Shown piece after piece: positions 3,418 through 23,557 of a DNA stretch of 37,987 bases. Each line of letters opens with the position of its first letter. Positions within the stretch are counted from its first letter, which is position 1. The notes beneath the pieces were generated by a model. The model was not told the DNA's origin. It saw only the letters and a list, made by a program, of their open reading frames with translations, and made no database searches. Position numbers and translations under genes: made by a program. Location: positions 1 to 37,987 of the forward strand of contig NZ_NFIU01000017.1 of the NCBI RefSeq assembly GCF_002159535.1, written 5' to 3'. The stretch comes from Olsenella sp. An290 (lineage in GTDB: Bacteria > Actinomycetota > Coriobacteriia > Coriobacteriales > Atopobiaceae).

Positions 3418-4218
3418 ATGGGCATGGCACACGGCACGAGGGACGCGCGCGAGAAGAACGTGCTGACGGTGGACGTGGGCAACACTCACACGCGCCTCGG
3501 GCTCTTCCGGGCGGGGGAGCTCGTTGGGACCTGCGAGCTCACGACGCCCGAGCGGCTCTCTGTTGACGAGGCGCGCATGCAGCTGGGCTCGGCCCTTGCG
3601 ATGATGGGGGAGCTTGCGCCCGAGGACGCCATCCTTGCGTGCGTGGTGCCCACGCATGCCGACGTCTGGCGCCGCGCGCTTGTCGCAAGCTGCTCCGGGC
3701 GCGCCTATGTGGTGGGCCCGGGCCTCAGGACGGGCCTCAAGATGCGCTACGACGACCCCTCCGAGGTGGGCGCCGACCGCGTGGCCGACGTCGTGGCCGC
3801 ACGGGCTGACTATGGGGCGCCCGTGGTGGTGGTTGACCTGGGCACGACGACGAACTTCGAGGTCGTGGATGCCGACGGGGCGTTTGCGGGCGGGATCATC
3901 GCCCCGGGCGTGGCGCTGGGCGCTCGCTCGCTCTCCGAGGCGGCGGCGCGGCTGCCCATGATCGAGCTGCGCGCACCGGCGTCCGTGGTTGGGCGCAACA
4001 CGCGCGCGGCGATGCAGTCGGGCGTGGTCCTGGGGGAGGTCGCGCGCATCGACGGGCTGCTCGACGCGGTGATGGGCGAGCTCGGTGCCGAGGCGCCCGT
4101 GGTGATGACCGGCGTCGGCGCCCAGGACATGGCCGCCCTCCTGCGCCGTGACGTCCGCGTGGACGATACCCTCACGCTGCGCGGCCTCTGGCACCTCTGG
4201 CGCGCGAACGCCCGGTAG
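3418..4218 (+). CDS. coaX: Type III pantothenate kinase
   Basis: Catalyses the first step of coenzyme A synthesis, phosphorylation of pantothenate, in the cytoplasm. The 266-residue length suits the family. The ASKHA phosphate-binding motif VDVGNTHTRLGLF is near residue 18, the pantothenate-site motif GADRVADVVAA near residue 119, and the second phosphate motif DLGTTTNFEVV near residue 140. A good ribosome site (GGAGG) precedes the ATG at 3418. A second in-frame ATG two codons later is possible. The first dozen residues (to REKN) are a non-conserved extension, so translation could in principle start later, but no better ribosome site is seen. The gene stands alone, divergent from the OPT gene. 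Type III kinases are insensitive to CoA feedback in the characterised examples. Confidence 0.95.
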   Translation: MGMAHGTRDAREKNVLTVDVGNTHTRLGLFRAGELVGTCELTTPERLSVDEARMQLGSALAMMGELAPEDAILACVVPTHADVWRRALVASCSGRAYVVGPGLRTGLKMRYDDPSEVGADRVADVVAARADYGAPVVVVDLGTTTNFEVVDADGAFAGGIIAPGVALGARSLSEAAARLPMIELRAPASVVGRNTRAAMQSGVVLGEVARIDGLLDAVMGELGAEAPVVMTGVGAQDMAALLRRDVRVDDTLTLRGLWHLWRANAR

Positions 4219-4249: not shown

Positions 4250-4267
4250 CGCGAGGTTCTTCTCGCC
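4250..4267. repeat. Left copy of an 18-bp inverted repeat bounding the DUF559 module
   Basis: CGCGAGGTTCTTCTCGCC here is the exact reverse complement of GGCGAGAAGAACCTCGCG at 5984-6001. The pair encloses both TACGTA arrays and the DUF559 gene. It lies 30 bases past the coaX stop codon and after a GC-rich stretch, so it could also act as the tail of a coaX terminator. Confidence 0.6.
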
Positions 4268-4282
4268 CGTCGCGCGCCCCCT

Positions 4283-4478
4283 CTTTCCGGTTACGTACAC
4301 CTTGGCGGGTTACGTACAATCCGGCCGGTTACGTACACGGAAAACGGCCCTAAAATTGGTTGCGTTTCATATTAATGCTGGTAAGAGCTTTAGGGCTGAG
4401 TGTACGTAACCGACCGGAGTGTACGTAACCGGAGAAAACGTACGTAGCCCGCCAAGGCGTACGTAACCGGAAAGGCAC
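4283..4478. repeat. TACGTA repeat array A: large imperfect palindrome with 19-bp period
   Basis: The nine bases TTACGTACA occur at 4291, 4310 and 4329, exactly 19 bp apart. Four copies in the opposite orientation (TGTACGTAA and close variants) occur at 4401, 4420, 4439 and 4458, again exactly 19 bp apart. The flanks of the units also match across the centre (CCTTGGCGGG with CCCGCCAAGG, CTTTCCGG with CCGGAAAG, GCCCTAAA with TTTAGGGC), so the whole element is one long imperfect inverted repeat round a 63-bp AT-rich spacer (4338-4400). Each unit is itself nearly self-complementary. No protein-coding sense is visible. Possible roles are binding sites for a multimeric protein, iterons, or ends of a mobile element. 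Confidence 0.85.
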
Positions 4479-4572
4479 GTGGGGAGCGTTTCCGCGTCCG
4501 GAGGGTACCTGGACCGTGCGACGTCGGACGCGGCCCGGGCGCGCCGCGCGCCACCTTGCCCGGGCCCTCGCG

Positions 4573-5520
4573 CTACACGCGCATGAGCTCGTTGACGAGG
4601 CTGCGACGGAGCAGGATGAAGTCGTCGTCATGGGGGAGGGAGCGTCCAAAGCGCGCCGCGACCCGGTCGGTGAGCAGCCTGAGCGCCGCGTCGTCCTCGA
4701 GCAGCCCGTCGGTCACCGAGCGGACCATCCACCCCAGGTCGCGCAGGCCCTCGGAGCGGCTCGCGTCGCTGTCCAGCGCACGCGGCGCGGTGTGCCAGCG
4801 GTAGCTGTCGTACTCGAGGATGGTTCGGGTTCCTGGCCAGCAGATGTCAACGGTGACGTAGGGCTTCCCCAGCGCCAGCTGCAGCTCGGGCGGAATCTCG
4901 ACGCGCTGGTTGAGGGCGGGAAGGGGCAGGCCGCACCCGCCCAGCTCGACGGGCAGGACGAGGGCGAGCACAAGGACGGTCTCCATGGGCGAGCGCGACC
5001 CGTCGACCACGTAGGGCAGCGCCTCGCGGACCCGCCCGGCCCCGTAGCCGCGCGCTGCGTCAAAGTATGTGCGCAGGTCACGGGCGGTATCGAGCGGCGC
5101 GCGCCGGAAAAAGCCCTCAGGGGACCGGGGCGAGCGAGCATAGGTGCCGCAGATTTCCGTTGCGATGGAGGCAGTGCGCGCAAGGCTTGAGCGCGGCGCC
5201 ATCTGCTGCAGGCAAAAGCGCGGCGAGGCAAGAAGGACCTCGGGCGTGAGCTGGTAGAGCGCACCGGCAGGGAGCGGCGTCGACCAGATGTGGTTGCGCA
5301 GCACGGGCGTCCGGATGCGCCGGTCTTCCGCGCAGACGAGGATGTGGAGCGGCCGGGCGGGAGTCGCCTCGAGGCGAGCGGCGCGCAGGACGGACTCGTC
5401 AAGGGAGCTGGCGCACGGGAGCGACCAGCCCTCGGGCTGCTCGAGGGGCGGTCCCAGGCGGCGCGCGAGGTCCTTCTCGGCCCACCGGGAGAGGGCGGAT
5501 ATGTCGCAGACGGTGATCAT
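4573..5520 (-). CDS. AbiEi-like / DUF559 domain protein with a predicted PD-(D/E)XK nuclease-like C-terminus
   Basis: A 315-residue protein. The first half (to about residue 130) resembles the central part of the AbiEi-type proteins common in Coriobacteriia (the segment around LHILVCAEDRR and HIWSTPLPAGALYQLT). The last third looks like the Vsr/DUF559 nuclease fold: PYVTVDICWPG, then LEYDSYRWH, then R-x(3)-LRDLGWMVRSVT. In that fold the D and E residues with later basic residues would bind metal, but the classic E-x-K is not obvious, so activity is uncertain. I prefer the ATG at 5520; a TTG at 5529 is the only further start and neither has a strong ribosome site. The gene is alone, boxed by two inverted copies of a TACGTA array, which suggests a self-contained unit. 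No partner AbiEii toxin is adjacent. Confidence 0.7.
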   Translation of the reverse strand: MITVCDISALSRWAEKDLARRLGPPLEQPEGWSLPCASSLDESVLRAARLEATPARPLHILVCAEDRRIRTPVLRNHIWSTPLPAGALYQLTPEVLLASPRFCLQQMAPRSSLARTASIATEICGTYARSPRSPEGFFRRAPLDTARDLRTYFDAARGYGAGRVREALPYVVDGSRSPMETVLVLALVLPVELGGCGLPLPALNQRVEIPPELQLALGKPYVTVDICWPGTRTILEYDSYRWHTAPRALDSDASRSEGLRDLGWMVRSVTDGLLEDDAALRLLTDRVAARFGRSLPHDDDFILLRRSLVNELMRV

Positions 5521-5747
5521 GATGGCCAAGTGTAGCGGTAGGCACTTACACGAATCTGCCGTCTATCTGGCAGTTATATATCAAATTAGAAAGAATTGCG
5601 AGGTAGTCGACCCGTCGGGTCAAACGGCCGGGTCGAAGCCTTTCACGATATCCCCACATTTCTGTCCGCAGGTCCTTCTCGCCCGGCCCGCAGATTGGCG
5701 TTTGGCCTCAATTTGCCCGCCGAGCCTTGCCGAGCCTCGACGGGCCT
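5521..5747. promoter_or_regulatory. AT-richer leader and promoter region of the DUF559 gene
   Basis: This gap contains the likely promoter of the minus-strand gene, including TATATA near 5576-5581. A hairpin CTGCC/GGCAG lies at 5557-5574, and nested copies of GACCC/GGGTC at 5608-5640 could form alternative stems. At 5670-5685 the sequence GGTCCTTCTCGCCCGG is a one-mismatch inverted partner of CCGGGCGAGAAGAACC at 5967-5982, so array B has its own flanking inverted repeat. No further gene is seen. Confidence 0.4.
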
Positions 5748-5937
5748 CCGGGTACGTACATTCCGAACGGTTACGTACACGCTTTTCGGTTACGTACACT
5801 CCGGCCGGGTACGTACACTCACCTGCGCGCTCTCTACCAGCAAAAATATAAGTAGAAACCAAAAAGCGAGCTGTCCGGCGTGTACGTAACCGGCCAGAGT
5901 GTACGTAACCGGCGAAAGTGTACGTACCCGGGCGCGG
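5748..5937. repeat. TACGTA repeat array B: inverted copy of array A
   Basis: Four units (GTACGTACA or TTACGTACA) start at 5752, 5771, 5790 and 5809, exactly 19 bp apart. Three inverted units start at 5881, 5900 and 5919, again 19 bp apart. The central spacer (5818-5880) is 63 bp, the same as in array A. Reverse-complemented, this array has the 3-plus-4 layout of array A, and the two spacers line up without gaps, sharing TTGGTT, TGCTGGTA and the final TGAG in register. Arrays A and B are therefore diverged inverted copies of one element on either side of the DUF559 gene. Confidence 0.85.
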
Positions 5938-5966
5938 GACGAGGCGGGAGGCCCTCGGCCTGCGCC

Positions 5967-6001
5967 CGGGCGAGAAGAACCTTGGCGAGAAGAACCTCGC
6001 G
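5967..6001. repeat. Two tandem copies of the GGCGAGAAGAACC motif; right end of the DUF559 module
   Basis: GGGCGAGAAGAACC (from 5969) and GGCGAGAAGAACCTCGCG (5984-6001) follow each other directly. The second is the exact inverted partner of 4250-4267. Fifteen bases of it (TTGGCGAGAAGAACC, 5982-5996) recur exactly at 23446-23460. Other copies of the core lie at 14281 and 19977. Confidence 0.6.
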
Positions 6002-9900: not shown

Positions 9901-11525
9901 TCGAGGCCTCGGGCAAGATCTACACGGTCCTCAAGATCGACCAGGTGTCCAACCTGGGTGCGGCGCGCATCCGCATCCGCTCGCTCATGGCCGCGCTCGC
10001 CGAGCAGCGCGAGGGCCTGCGCCGCGCGGCGAGCCAGGGCGCGATCCGCGAGGTCGAGCCCATCGACGTGCTCCAGGCCGACGGCTCGCTCGAGCGCTCC
10101 CGCACCACGCCGGAGGGCCGCGTGCCGGTCTACCGCAAGGCGGAGAGCGCGGCGTTCGAGAAGGTCCGCTACACCGAGGACATGCAGAGGAAGGGCTACA
10201 CCATCCTCGTCCCGCAGATGGCGCCCATCCACTTTGACCTGCTCGAGGTTCTTCTCAAGAGCGCGGGCTACAACGTGGTGCTGCTGCCGTCGGTGGACCA
10301 GGGCGCCGTCGAGGCCGGCCTCAAGTACGTCAACAACGACATCTGCTACCCCTCGATCCTGGTCACGGGCCAGATCATGGAGGCGGTGCTCTCCGGGAAG
10401 TACGACCTCTCGCGCCTGGCGGTCATCATCACCCAGACCGGCGGCGGCTGCCGCGCGACCAACTACATCGCGCTCATCCGCAAGGCCCTCAAGGACTCCG
10501 GCCACCCGGAGATCCCGGTGATCTCCCTCACCGCGGCGTCCGGTCTTGACGAGGACAACCCCGGCTTCAGCATCTTCAAGCCCGAGATCCTCTCCAAGGC
10601 GGTCTTTGCGCTGCTCTACGGCGACCTCATCATGCAGCTGCTCTACCGCTGCCGCCCCTACGAGGCCGAGCCGGGAGCTGCCGACGCGCTCTACGAGCGC
10701 ATGATGGCCGACGCCAAGGCGCTCATCGCGTCCGCGTCGCCCTCGCGCAAGCGCTTCTACGAGCTCTGCCAGCGCACGGTGGACGCCTTCGAGGCGCTGC
10801 CGCTCGTGAACGACCGCTCCAAGCCGCGCGTGGGCGTGGTGGGCGAGATTCTCGTCAAGTTCCACCCCACGGCCAACAACCAGGTGGTCAAGGTCATTGA
10901 GCAGGAGGGGTGCGAGGCCAACGTGCCGGGGCTCGTGGACTTCTTCCTCTTTGGCATGACCAACGCGATCAACATGAAGGACGAGCTCGGGACCAAGGCC
11001 ACGAGCCGCCTCACGCACATGGCGGGCATCAAGCTCATCGAGGGCTTCCGCGAGCCCATCAACAAGATGCTCGAGAAGTCCACGCGCTTCCAGCCGTACC
11101 CCGACATCTTCGAGCTGGCCGCCAAGGCCGAGCAGGTGCTGTCGCTCTGCAACACGATGGGCGAGGGGTGGCTCCTCACGGCCGAGATGGTCGACCTCAT
11201 CGAGTGCGGCACGCCCAACATCGTGTGCTGCTCGCCGTTTGCGTGCCTGCCCAACCACGTGGTCGGCAAGTCCGTGATCAAGCGCCTGCGCCAGATGCAC
11301 CCCGAGAGCAACATCGTGGCCGTGGACTACGACCCCGGCGCCTCCGAGGTGAACCAGCTCAACCGCATCAAGCTCATGATCTCGGTGGCCAAGGAGAACT
11401 ACCGCGAGAACCGCGAGGGGGGCTTCCGCCTGGAGAACCCCACGGACCCCACGCGCACCGGCGAGGACTTTGGCCCCATCCACCTGAGCGACGAGCAGCT
11501 TGCGCAGCTGAACAGCCTCAAGTAG
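6903..11525 (+). CDS. Giant 2-hydroxyacyl-CoA dehydratase activase / DUF2229 fusion protein
   Basis: A 1540-residue protein with two BcrAD/BadF-type ASKHA ATPase domains: the first begins LGIDVGSTTVKLAVID (about residue 42) and carries CAGGTGAFID, the second begins FIGIDAGSTTMKCAVV (about residue 356) and carries CSSGCGSFIE. The Cys residues in these loops are where activators of 2-hydroxyglutaryl-CoA dehydratase bind a shared [4Fe-4S] cluster. A small Cys motif (HCGRCSNNC) follows near residue 640, then a DUF2229 region (VCYPAKLSHGH) and a C-terminal half resembling dehydratase subunits (NNDICYPSILVTGQ). Such fusions are widespread in anaerobic clostridia and Coriobacteriia but their substrate is not known. 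The ATG at 6903 has AAGGAGG upstream; the earlier in-frame ATG at 6882 lacks one. Complete, ending in a strong terminator. Confidence 0.9.
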   Translation: MSKTADSIQAEKAARRPLELRQNGAELAPAHPADFSHARLRLGIDVGSTTVKLAVIDDNDNLVYANYERHHTDIRATAKELFAGARKVVGDAPMRVSITGSGGMLLANWLGLEFVQEVIASKRAVEALIPQTDCAIELGGEDAKIIYFDNGIEQRMNGTCAGGTGAFIDQMASLLHTDAAGLNELAKGATQIHPIASRCGVFAKSDVQPLLNEGARPEDIAASIFQAVANQTVSGLACGHPIRGYVAFLGGPLQYLSELRHRFYETLDLDEEHRIVPENAHLFVATGAALAGESDKRVTFDEIIGLLAELKDTQGSEVARLEPLFAGEKDYEEFKERHDQQVVPKGDLASYQGRVFIGIDAGSTTMKCAVVGESGELLYTWYGNNNGDVLGTARRIMDDIYDRLPAGCAIGHVTTTGYGEQILIEALRADSGEIETVAHLRGAKAFVPDVQFILDIGGQDMKCLQVKDGVIEHIMLNEACSSGCGSFIESFAVSMNMTVQDFAQAAVTAKSPVDLGSRCTVFMNSRVKQAQKEGATIGDVAAGLSYSVIKNALFKVIKLRDFDEIGQWCVVQGGTFMSDATLRAFEKLTGRNVIRPDIAGCMGAYGAALLARDRAGAAGTSQILSREDIDSLKVKHTNVHCGRCSNNCLLTINDFGGGRRFITGNRCEKGAGGSRAKKSDAPNLFEFKNKLLFDRPVLDPESAPRGTVGIPRALNMYENYPFWHAFFTKLGFSVVLSDQTSAATYDAGIESMPSESVCYPAKLSHGHLMNLLKKDPDFIWMPCIRWERKEDDGATNHYNCPIVMSYPQALGLNVDELATGNVEFLSPFIPYDKKRELKRRLYELVSVQREKDAAEGRGRVRGERITRSEIDAAVNYAWQADLDFKDAMHRAGDDALRWIEAHDGHGIVLAGRPYHNDPEINHAIPELVHSFGFAVLTEDSVAHKMRPERPIRVVDQWMFHSRLYRAARFVASRNDLDLIQLFSFGCGLDALTTDQVQEILEASGKIYTVLKIDQVSNLGAARIRIRSLMAALAEQREGLRRAASQGAIREVEPIDVLQADGSLERSRTTPEGRVPVYRKAESAAFEKVRYTEDMQRKGYTILVPQMAPIHFDLLEVLLKSAGYNVVLLPSVDQGAVEAGLKYVNNDICYPSILVTGQIMEAVLSGKYDLSRLAVIITQTGGGCRATNYIALIRKALKDSGHPEIPVISLTAASGLDEDNPGFSIFKPEILSKAVFALLYGDLIMQLLYRCRPYEAEPGAADALYERMMADAKALIASASPSRKRFYELCQRTVDAFEALPLVNDRSKPRVGVVGEILVKFHPTANNQVVKVIEQEGCEANVPGLVDFFLFGMTNAINMKDELGTKATSRLTHMAGIKLIEGFREPINKMLEKSTRFQPYPDIFELAAKAEQVLSLCNTMGEGWLLTAEMVDLIECGTPNIVCCSPFACLPNHVVGKSVIKRLRQMHPESNIVAVDYDPGASEVNQLNRIKLMISVAKENYRENREGGFRLENPTDPTRTGEDFGPIHLSDEQLAQLNSLK

Positions 11526-23374: not shown

Positions 23375-23400
23375 GCCGCCGGCCCCGCGGCTTTGTTTTG
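23375..23400 (+). terminator. Terminator after the NADH oxidase gene
   Basis: GCCGC (23375-23379) pairs with GCGGC (23387-23391), followed by TTTGTTTTG. Larger upstream pairings (GGGCTGG with CCAGCCC) add stability. The tail matches that of the terminator at 40-68. Confidence 0.75.
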
Positions 23401-23406
23401 CGCGCT

Positions 23407-23480
23407 TAGCATACACAAATTTGGTTGCAATCCACATATCCGCAGTTGGCGAGAAGAACCGCGTCCAAAAATGTATGCTA
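23407..23480. repeat. Inverted repeat enclosing a TTGGCGAGAAGAACC motif
   Basis: TAGCATACA (23407-23415) is matched by TGTATGCTA (23472-23480), with further partial pairing of TTTGG and CCAAA inside. The enclosed 56 bases contain TTGGCGAGAAGAACC (23446-23460), identical to 5982-5996. No gene is seen here. It may be an extragenic element or the scar of one. Confidence 0.55.
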
Positions 23481-23557
23481 TTCGCTGAGGCCGAGCCCGT
23501 CGGCCCCGCGTCCCCGGCCACCCTTCTGTGGAGAACTCTTCACAATCGAGAAAAACC

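Follow-up and report, generated by a model that had tools for sequence, protein, structure and literature searches.

Solo long terminal repeats (LTRs) form by recombination between two flanking LTRs, and a homing endonuclease gene interrupts its own recognition site. In RAYT/REPIN systems (PMC3116915), a transposase gene stands beside copies of its own repeat, and gene-less copies lie in intergenic DNA. The proteins AbiEi and Rv2827c have, in their own promoters, sets of 23-bp inverted repeats to which they bind (PMC7319586). Here we describe a block from Olsenella sp. An290 in which one gene, for a predicted endonuclease of the Vsr/DUF559 type, lies between two arrays of short repeat units. 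The block was studied in a stretch of 37,987 nucleotides (hereafter the window), contig NZ_NFIU01000017.1, which is one (C9) of the 42 contigs of a 2.15-Mb genome. The same layout recurs around every intact orthologue of the gene that we found in the genus, and we favour, with some reserve, a reading in which the block is one copy, complete with its gene, of a two-part element, selfish or partly domesticated, that resembles RAYT/REPIN and uses a different enzyme.

Results

The gene and its flanking arrays

Open reading frames and unit coordinates confirm the proposal of an earlier note on this DNA that a single gene lies between two arrays, A and B (Table 1). The product has 315 aa, with an ATG start at 5520. 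The unit GGTTACGTACAC, searched with up to 2 mismatches, has 14 matches in the window, 13 of them inside arrays A and B; 100 shuffled windows average 0.85 matches and never exceed 5, and chance is thereby excluded. Units of array A lie on the forward strand at 4289, 4308 and 4327 and on the reverse strand at 4400, 4419, 4438 (3 mismatches) and 4457; those of array B lie on the forward strand at 5750 (2 mismatches), 5769, 5788 and 5807 and on the reverse strand at 5880, 5899 and 5918. Array B is indeed an inverted copy of array A, both centres measuring exactly 61 bp and the orientation being opposite.

Among 31 genomes of the genus, orthologues (54-62% identity, at least 350 bits; paralogues 39-43%, at most 221 bits) are intact at 21 loci in 19 genomes. 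One genome (G026; genomes, loci and contigs carry our own handles) has a copy with a stop codon, another (G015) one partial match, and in 10 of the 31, some of these with arrays, no orthologue was found. All 21 intact loci have an array on each side, 19 supported by a box detector and two (L208 and L213, with degenerate upstream arrays) accepted by eye. The detector looks for inverted words around the core and its matches were sorted by hand; it responds to other sequence too, with 17 hits in 86,649 shuffled bases and some within genes, and at L216 and L217 its upstream inverted words lie beside the unit. Boxing also surfaced unasked in four genomes when the neighbours of arrays were read. The number of 11-mers common to both 900-bp flanks has a median of 53 for the orthologues, 18 of the 21 exceeding the control maximum of 21, against medians of 1.5 for coaX (26 loci), 3 for tetR (26) and 5 for aroA (30). 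The broken copy L218 has units on one side only. Thus the link between gene and arrays, which had been drawn from position in the window, held, and no intact locus showed the gene without its arrays. The data did not support the idea that the two arrays must be inverted: the pair is direct at 13 and inverted at 6 of the 19 loci assigned, the window belonging to the latter.

At L201 the downstream array lies about 700 bp off, behind a small open reading frame that adjoins the boxed gene and is presumably HicB-like; at L206 and L207 similar sequence leads up to a third array.

Units differ between lineages and agree within a locus. Box units include GGTTACGTAC, GGGTACGTAC, GGGTATGTAC, CATCGTGTAC, CGTTGTGTAC and AGGTTATGCG, and further GGTTATGTAC, GGTTATGCGC, GGTTGTGCGC, GGGTGTGTAC and GGTATGCGCA. 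Upstream and downstream arrays of a locus share 86% identity on average over 19 loci (L208 and L213 left out, coordinates hand-picked), and for 15 of the 19 upstream arrays the closest of the 19 downstream box arrays is their own partner, which ranks 2, 2, 2 and 4 in the others. Beside rpmB, where the gene stands in four genomes, the units fall into at least three clearly distinct types: that of G019 (GCATCGTGTACAC), that of G028, and that of G029 and G021, whose units are close to each other. In 11 of 18 genomes the commonest unit of arrays standing without the gene (solo arrays) is that of the genome's own box, a comparison that rests on one array in 14 of the 18, chosen by a model preferring the An290 unit. 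In four genomes with several solo arrays inspected, agreement is plain, the box unit making up 72 of 95 units in G000, 96 of 103 in G029, 27 of 28 in G011 and 13 of 14 in G022; in G021 the units are mixed (5 of 12).

Chromosomal places of the block

The block occupies eight chromosomal places across the orthologue loci, which we take to be beside hisS, between aroB and aroA, beside rpmB, beside comF, between coaX and tetR (the window), beside a tRNA gene, and two others. The names coaX, tetR, hisS, aroA, aroB, rpmB, comF and HicAB are our assumptions from the look of the sequences, as is the resemblance of the window neighbours to coaX and tetR. In other genomes the protein is absent from the 1.5-kb flanks of 29 coaX and 29 tetR loci, and the 11 full coaX-tetR stretches hold an unrelated gene of ~320-345 aa instead. 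The aroB-aroA place was compared at 30 loci from 31 aroA genomes: six are boxed, two (G024 and G010) have a solo array, and 21 have neither, with gaps of 12-124 bp; at the one remaining aroA locus (G006) neither aroB nor the nuclease gene was found. By eye, the solo locus of G010 and the boxed locus of G027 have both outer flanks in common. With six boxed and two solo loci at one place, the simplest reading of the series is that the gene is lost from between its arrays, much as solo LTRs form.

The array as a dispersed element

The unit occurs in the An290 genome at 73 places exactly and at 121 with up to 1 mismatch (reversed control, 2). Chained units give 18 arrays at 15 places, three of which hold two arrays. 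The plan is constant: about three units, a 61-bp centre with a GCAGGTA-like core, and about four inverted units, at a 19-bp period. The inner gap is exactly 61 bp in all 18 arrays; three left and four right units are the commonest layout (7 of 18; ranges 2-5 and 3-7). The centre is directional, with GAAAAAGGTCCTTCTCG toward the left units, then TTTTnCATTTCTGCAGGTAGAnGGCTTG toward the right units, and T34, C40 and GGTA (42-45) are present in 18 of 18. None of the 18 overlaps a predicted gene.

The exact unit pair was found in 3 of 120 genomes, An290 included, which would suggest a local oddity. The picture changes with R1, a sequence-only model of the 18 An290 arrays, which matches at E <=0.01 (E-values being rough, and rows counting both strands) in 26 of the 31 genus genomes, An290 included; since R1 derives from An290 arrays only, its matches elsewhere favour similar units. 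Fifty arrays were fetched from five relatives, 40 being inspected as sequence, and make 68 with those of An290. The relatives' arrays follow the same plan, with units mostly of the GGGTACGTACAC type, a spacing of ~21 bp (e.g. L200), an inner gap of ~80 bp and cores such as TTTCCGCAGGTAGA, often with CTTCTCGCC / GGCGAGAAG around them. Each of the six genomes yielded 5 to 24 arrays (lower bounds). All except one of the 68 overlap no predicted gene by more than 20 bp. They lie in 23 convergent, 7 divergent and 38 tandem gaps, against 11, 21 and 50 array-free gaps at the same loci (convergent versus divergent, p 0.001; two arrays in one gap are counted twice and orthologous positions are included). 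Many positions are common to G011, G017 and G022, so that the elements are also inherited vertically. Furthermore, R1 matches are more numerous in the 19 gene-bearing genomes than in the other 12 (p 0.006; 0.008 without An290).

Several identities for the arrays were considered and rejected. Rfam gave no match at arrays of the five sources scanned, which removes a known RNA. A phage or plasmid origin was dropped, as array A has no blastn match in phage or plasmid collections and the protein no relative found in viral contigs. L042 adjoins a phage integrase; a reading as integrase attP sites was set aside from the look of the neighbours of the other An290 arrays. A regulon defined by common neighbour genes was discarded because array neighbours differ.

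Some array pairs enclose other genes. At L163, L167 (G029) and L188 (G022) the members of a pair stand 2.4 to 3.8 kb apart with non-nuclease genes inside. At L055 (G021) a phosphotransferase system (PTS)/beta-glucosidase operon lies between arrays at 3880-4002 and 9982-10104, and homology between G021 and G013 ends within ~30 bp of both arrays. The PTS operon in G013 and G028 (L289; L290) is 90-94% identical DNA with other neighbours and one array, whose centre is inverted relative to one G021 copy; in these two stretches units were found at one end only, and the flank is shared beyond the array. Array-bounded transfer of the operon is therefore no more than a hint.

The protein and its relatives

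Searched against Pfam with hits allowed up to E 1, the protein matched only MTES_1575 REase (E 0.008; 16.7 bits against a cut-off of 38.2). Six orthologues gave MTES_1575, DUF559 or nothing, and the best MTES_1575 score among nine homologues was 26.3 against the same cut-off. Paralogue L220 passes the DUF559 cut-off (22.7 versus 20.6); one of eight paralogue pieces has sub-threshold matches. All 21 orthologues share, without variation, the motifs SRSPMET, D..W, EY.SY..H and D..R.EGLRD.GWMVR. These supply the C-terminal domain with a constant acidic/His pattern made up of E (SRSPMET), D (D..W), E (EY.SY), H and D. These residues we take to be the active site of a Vsr-type PD-(D/E)XK enzyme, and the protein is predicted to be an endonuclease of this Vsr/DUF559 type. 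The label 'AbiEi-like' given to it earlier, presumably by resemblance, is backed by no profile match: neither Pfam nor NCBIfam shows an AbiEi domain. No tyrosine transposase match was found in Pfam for the protein (up to E 1) or for the six orthologues, and the NCBIfam and PHROGs searches of the protein gave nothing usable. MTES_1575 is a Vsr-family REase domain (PMC3710099).

A profile of nine orthologues found homologues in 41 of 59 genomes of other genera or families (E 1e-25). Five non-genus loci were inspected by eye, and repeats lie on both sides of the homologue in G045, G058, G034 and G051 and on one side in G087; in G058 the homologue is flanked by a perfect inverted pair of 129-bp copies whose core is CCGCAGGTCAGCG. 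Shared 11-mers exceed 21 at 10 of 25 non-genus loci, 3 of 7 genus paralogues and 2 of 8 An290 paralogues. With a cut of 8 the counts are 14/25, 4/7 and 4/8, and those of the controls 1/26 (coaX), 6/26 (tetR) and 11/30 (aroA). G045 is not among the high scorers. Two An290 paralogues are boxed by elements of other sequence: L030 by the palindrome ACATACATTCCACGCGGTTCTTCTCG (~1226-1300 and 2084-2160), and L028 by CGTTTACGTATCC / GGATGCGTAAACG elements (~700-810 and 2240-2370). L266, a homologue from another family, has a downstream inverted array of TGCAAATGTAACAAAACGCGAAGTTTT units.

The 18-bp inverted repeat and a genus-wide motif

The 18-bp inverted repeat (4250-4267 and 5984-6001) that had been described as enclosing the block is exact, as claimed. 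Its role as a boundary falls because its core, GGCGAGAAGAACC, is a genome-wide motif, and the two arms pair copies of a motif of which the genome has 210. Searched with up to 1 mismatch, GGCGAGAAGAACC occurs at 471 genome places (reversed control, 18); GGCGAGAAGRACC accounts for the 210 copies in An290, and every one of the 31 genus genomes carries it, in 16-449 copies against 0-2 for the reversed control. A reading of the repeat as a transposon end was rejected on the same ground, the core being spread through genome and genus.

The motif appears in many array centres as GGCGAGAAGRACC and, facing outward, beside arrays: within 150 bp of the 18 An290 arrays, 15 of 16 copies counted face outward, without deduplication. 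Of 29 GGCGAGAAGRACC sites inspected, drawn from loci picked around arrays and paralogues, 27 fall outside predicted genes. Copies in the window start at 23448 and at the four places of Table 1 (4255, 5671, 5969 and 5984). At 23400-23490 the window also holds a palindromic element of another family, with arms AGCATACA / TGTATGCT and centre ATCCGCAGTTGGCGAGAAGAACC, which possibly belongs to another nuclease paralogue.

Table 1. Positions in the window of the boxed gene, its arrays and the nearby motif copies.
Feature	Position	Strand	Remarks
Predicted Vsr/DUF559-type (PD-(D/E)XK) endonuclease gene	4573..5520	-	Open reading frame; sub-threshold MTES_1575 REase; 21 orthologues
Array A	4289..4468	+	3 units, 61-bp centre, 4 inverted units
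Array A centre, 61 bp, core GCTGGTAAGAG	4339..4399	+	GGTA at 42-45 as in 18/18 arrays
Array B, same element flipped	5750..5929	-	Read on +: 4 units, 61-bp centre, 3 units
Array B centre, 61 bp, core GCTGGTAGAGAG (read on -)	5819..5879	-	
Motif GGCGAGAAGAACC, left arm of 18-bp repeat	4255..4267	-	Points outward from array A
Motif GGCGAGAAGAACC	5969..5981	+	Points outward from array B
Motif GGCGAGAAGAACC, right arm of 18-bp repeat	5984..5996	+	
Motif copy GGCGAGAAGGACC, in box between gene start and array B	5671..5683	-	

Discussion

The layout of a nuclease-like gene between two arrays is conserved, occurs at several places, forms a series of neither, solo and boxed states, combines lineage-specific units with like flanks, and is accompanied by intergenic dispersal of the arrays. 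The block is therefore probably a gene-bearing copy of a two-part element of the kind proposed above. In such an element, the Vsr/DUF559-type endonuclease would recognise its own inverted arrays, the evenly spaced units would serve as binding sites and the GCAGGTA core of the centre would be the likely place of action. The flanking arrays would form the ends of the element. The 16 gene-less arrays of An290 would have arisen by independent spread of arrays, or by gene loss through recombination between flanking arrays, and copying may proceed by nuclease-driven break repair or gene conversion.

Several observations weigh against this reading. We infer DNA binding, cleavage and mobility for the protein and arrays, and the nuclease assignment itself combines sub-threshold profile matches with a reading of motifs; a PDB profile search found no relative, and a single-sequence AlphaFold2 model was unusable (pLDDT, the predicted local distance difference test, 36). 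The earlier note had named arrays found widely without the gene as evidence against a link, and this came true: 16 of the 18 An290 arrays stand elsewhere, and G017 (99% complete) has arrays and no orthologue. A few weaker array matches also occur without an orthologue in G013, G010, G024, G006, G008 and G030, of which G010, G024 and G030 are 76-89% complete. Conversely, G004 has a boxed gene and no match to R1, and G019 only one, R1 being based on An290 units. Solo and box units disagree in 7 of 18 genomes, the 11-mer counts of L208, L213 and L217 lie within the control range, and array pairs surround other genes (L163, L167, L188 and L055). Clean insertion boundaries and target duplication had been suggested as a check. 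When loci with and without the block were compared at aroB-aroA, by eye no target-site duplication was recognised in the flanks, and relatives were too divergent to provide a base-exact empty site. Finally, the window centres A and B are identical at 31 of 61 positions, rank 92 of 153 pairs of An290 centres. Array A is nevertheless the best partner of the array B centre among these centres, the two arrays are 75% identical when a wider region with the units is compared, and the word CTTCTCG, present in 12 of 18 centres, is absent from both. The window centres are not close copies; hence this box is either old or was put together from two arrays.

The strongest alternative, although an unlikely one, is that the protein is an AbiEi-like DNA-binding autoregulator, with the flanking arrays as operators and the dispersed arrays as sites of a regulon or of chromosome organisation. 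The inverted repeats in the promoters of AbiEi and Rv2827c offer a precedent (PMC7319586), the upstream array ends ~190-320 bp before the gene at the 19 loci with assigned coordinates, and many solo positions are common to G011, G017 and G022. Against this reading, all 21 loci have a further array beyond the 3' end of the gene. The arrays favour convergent and avoid divergent gaps (23:7 versus 11:21), the genes next to different arrays in An290 are almost never related (one locus pair, 35% identity), and the presumed catalytic residues are strictly kept.

Improbable in our view is an addiction or defence system in which the arrays would soak up the nuclease and so render it harmless until array loss or invading DNA frees it. 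A predicted nuclease with many presumed cognate sites per genome would suit such a role, and MTES_1575 domains are found in multidomain proteins for which a defence role has been proposed (PMC3710099). Against it, PADLOC gave no match for the protein and three orthologues, and some of the 10 genus genomes in which the orthologue was not found have arrays.

We give slightly less credence still to the gene being a passenger caught between two copies of an ordinary miniature element mobilised by an unrelated transposase. Array pairs a few kb apart around other genes, such as those at L163, L167 and L188 and around the PTS operon of G021, count in its favour. Boxing at 21 of 21 loci in eight places, with like flanking arrays and lineage-specific units, does not fit, and among the array neighbours of six genomes this was the sole gene directly between two arrays in more than one genome. 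Chance flanking by two unrelated dispersed repeats, for which one could cite the 18 An290 arrays and two more close pairs with no predicted gene between them (C1 and C42), is refuted by the 21 boxed orthologues and the control gene sets.

Returning to the two-part element, we raise more tentatively, as something that may or may not prove general, that the block belongs to an undescribed class of selfish elements widespread in Coriobacteriia. Vsr/DUF559 paralogues would have expanded, many owning a dispersed inverted-repeat family, with several independent pairs per genome, copying driven by the nuclease rather than a transposase, and GGCGAGAAGRACC as shared repeat core. Among the entries returned by searches of an open-access library, none described a system of this nuclease-repeat kind. 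If true, this would be a second, unrelated invention of the RAYT/REPIN role in which a nuclease replaces the transposase, and the system bears on how gene-less bacterial repeats persist and spread. Sister species differ in both unit and protein under a fixed layout, so that the loci also form a ready series for studying the evolution of DNA specificity.

Known systems share some features with the block and lack others. As with the AbiEi type IV antitoxins (PMC7319586), the gene encodes a small, presumably DNA-binding protein and has spaced inverted repeats next to it; in contrast to them, the arrays lie on both sides of the gene and are dispersed, and the AbiEi domain is missing from the Pfam and NCBIfam matches. 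Similarly, EDxHD/Vsr homing endonuclease genes are solo genes for nucleases with a Vsr-like fold found at several sites in related genomes, whereas here both flanking arrays are complete with both arms, and the array would be the recognition site. With LTR/solo-LTR elements and composite transposons the block shares the occurrence of neither, solo repeat and repeat-gene-repeat at one site, and flanking copies that are mostly direct and alike. It differs in that its repeats are arrays of ~100-240 bp with inverted arms, with no match to a reverse transcriptase or DDE transposase and no target-site duplication seen.

The block is not a member of RAYT/REPIN, because the defining Y1 (HUH) tyrosine transposase is absent and a predicted PD-(D/E)XK nuclease of the Vsr/DUF559 type stands in its place. 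It further differs from that system (PMC3116915) in having an array of short units around a centre of fixed length, with a full array on each side of the gene, and 5 to 24 arrays per genome (lower bounds, six genomes) rather than hundreds. The core of the An290 centres contains GTAG in 13 and GTAA in 5 of 18, REP (repetitive extragenic palindromic) tags being GTAG or CGTC. What the two have in common is a gene flanked by a dispersed, extragenic, palindromic repeat (21 of 21 loci boxed; 67 of 68 arrays extragenic), gene-less copies in intergenic DNA, lineage-specific repeats, more than one gene-repeat pair per genome and an inverted organisation.

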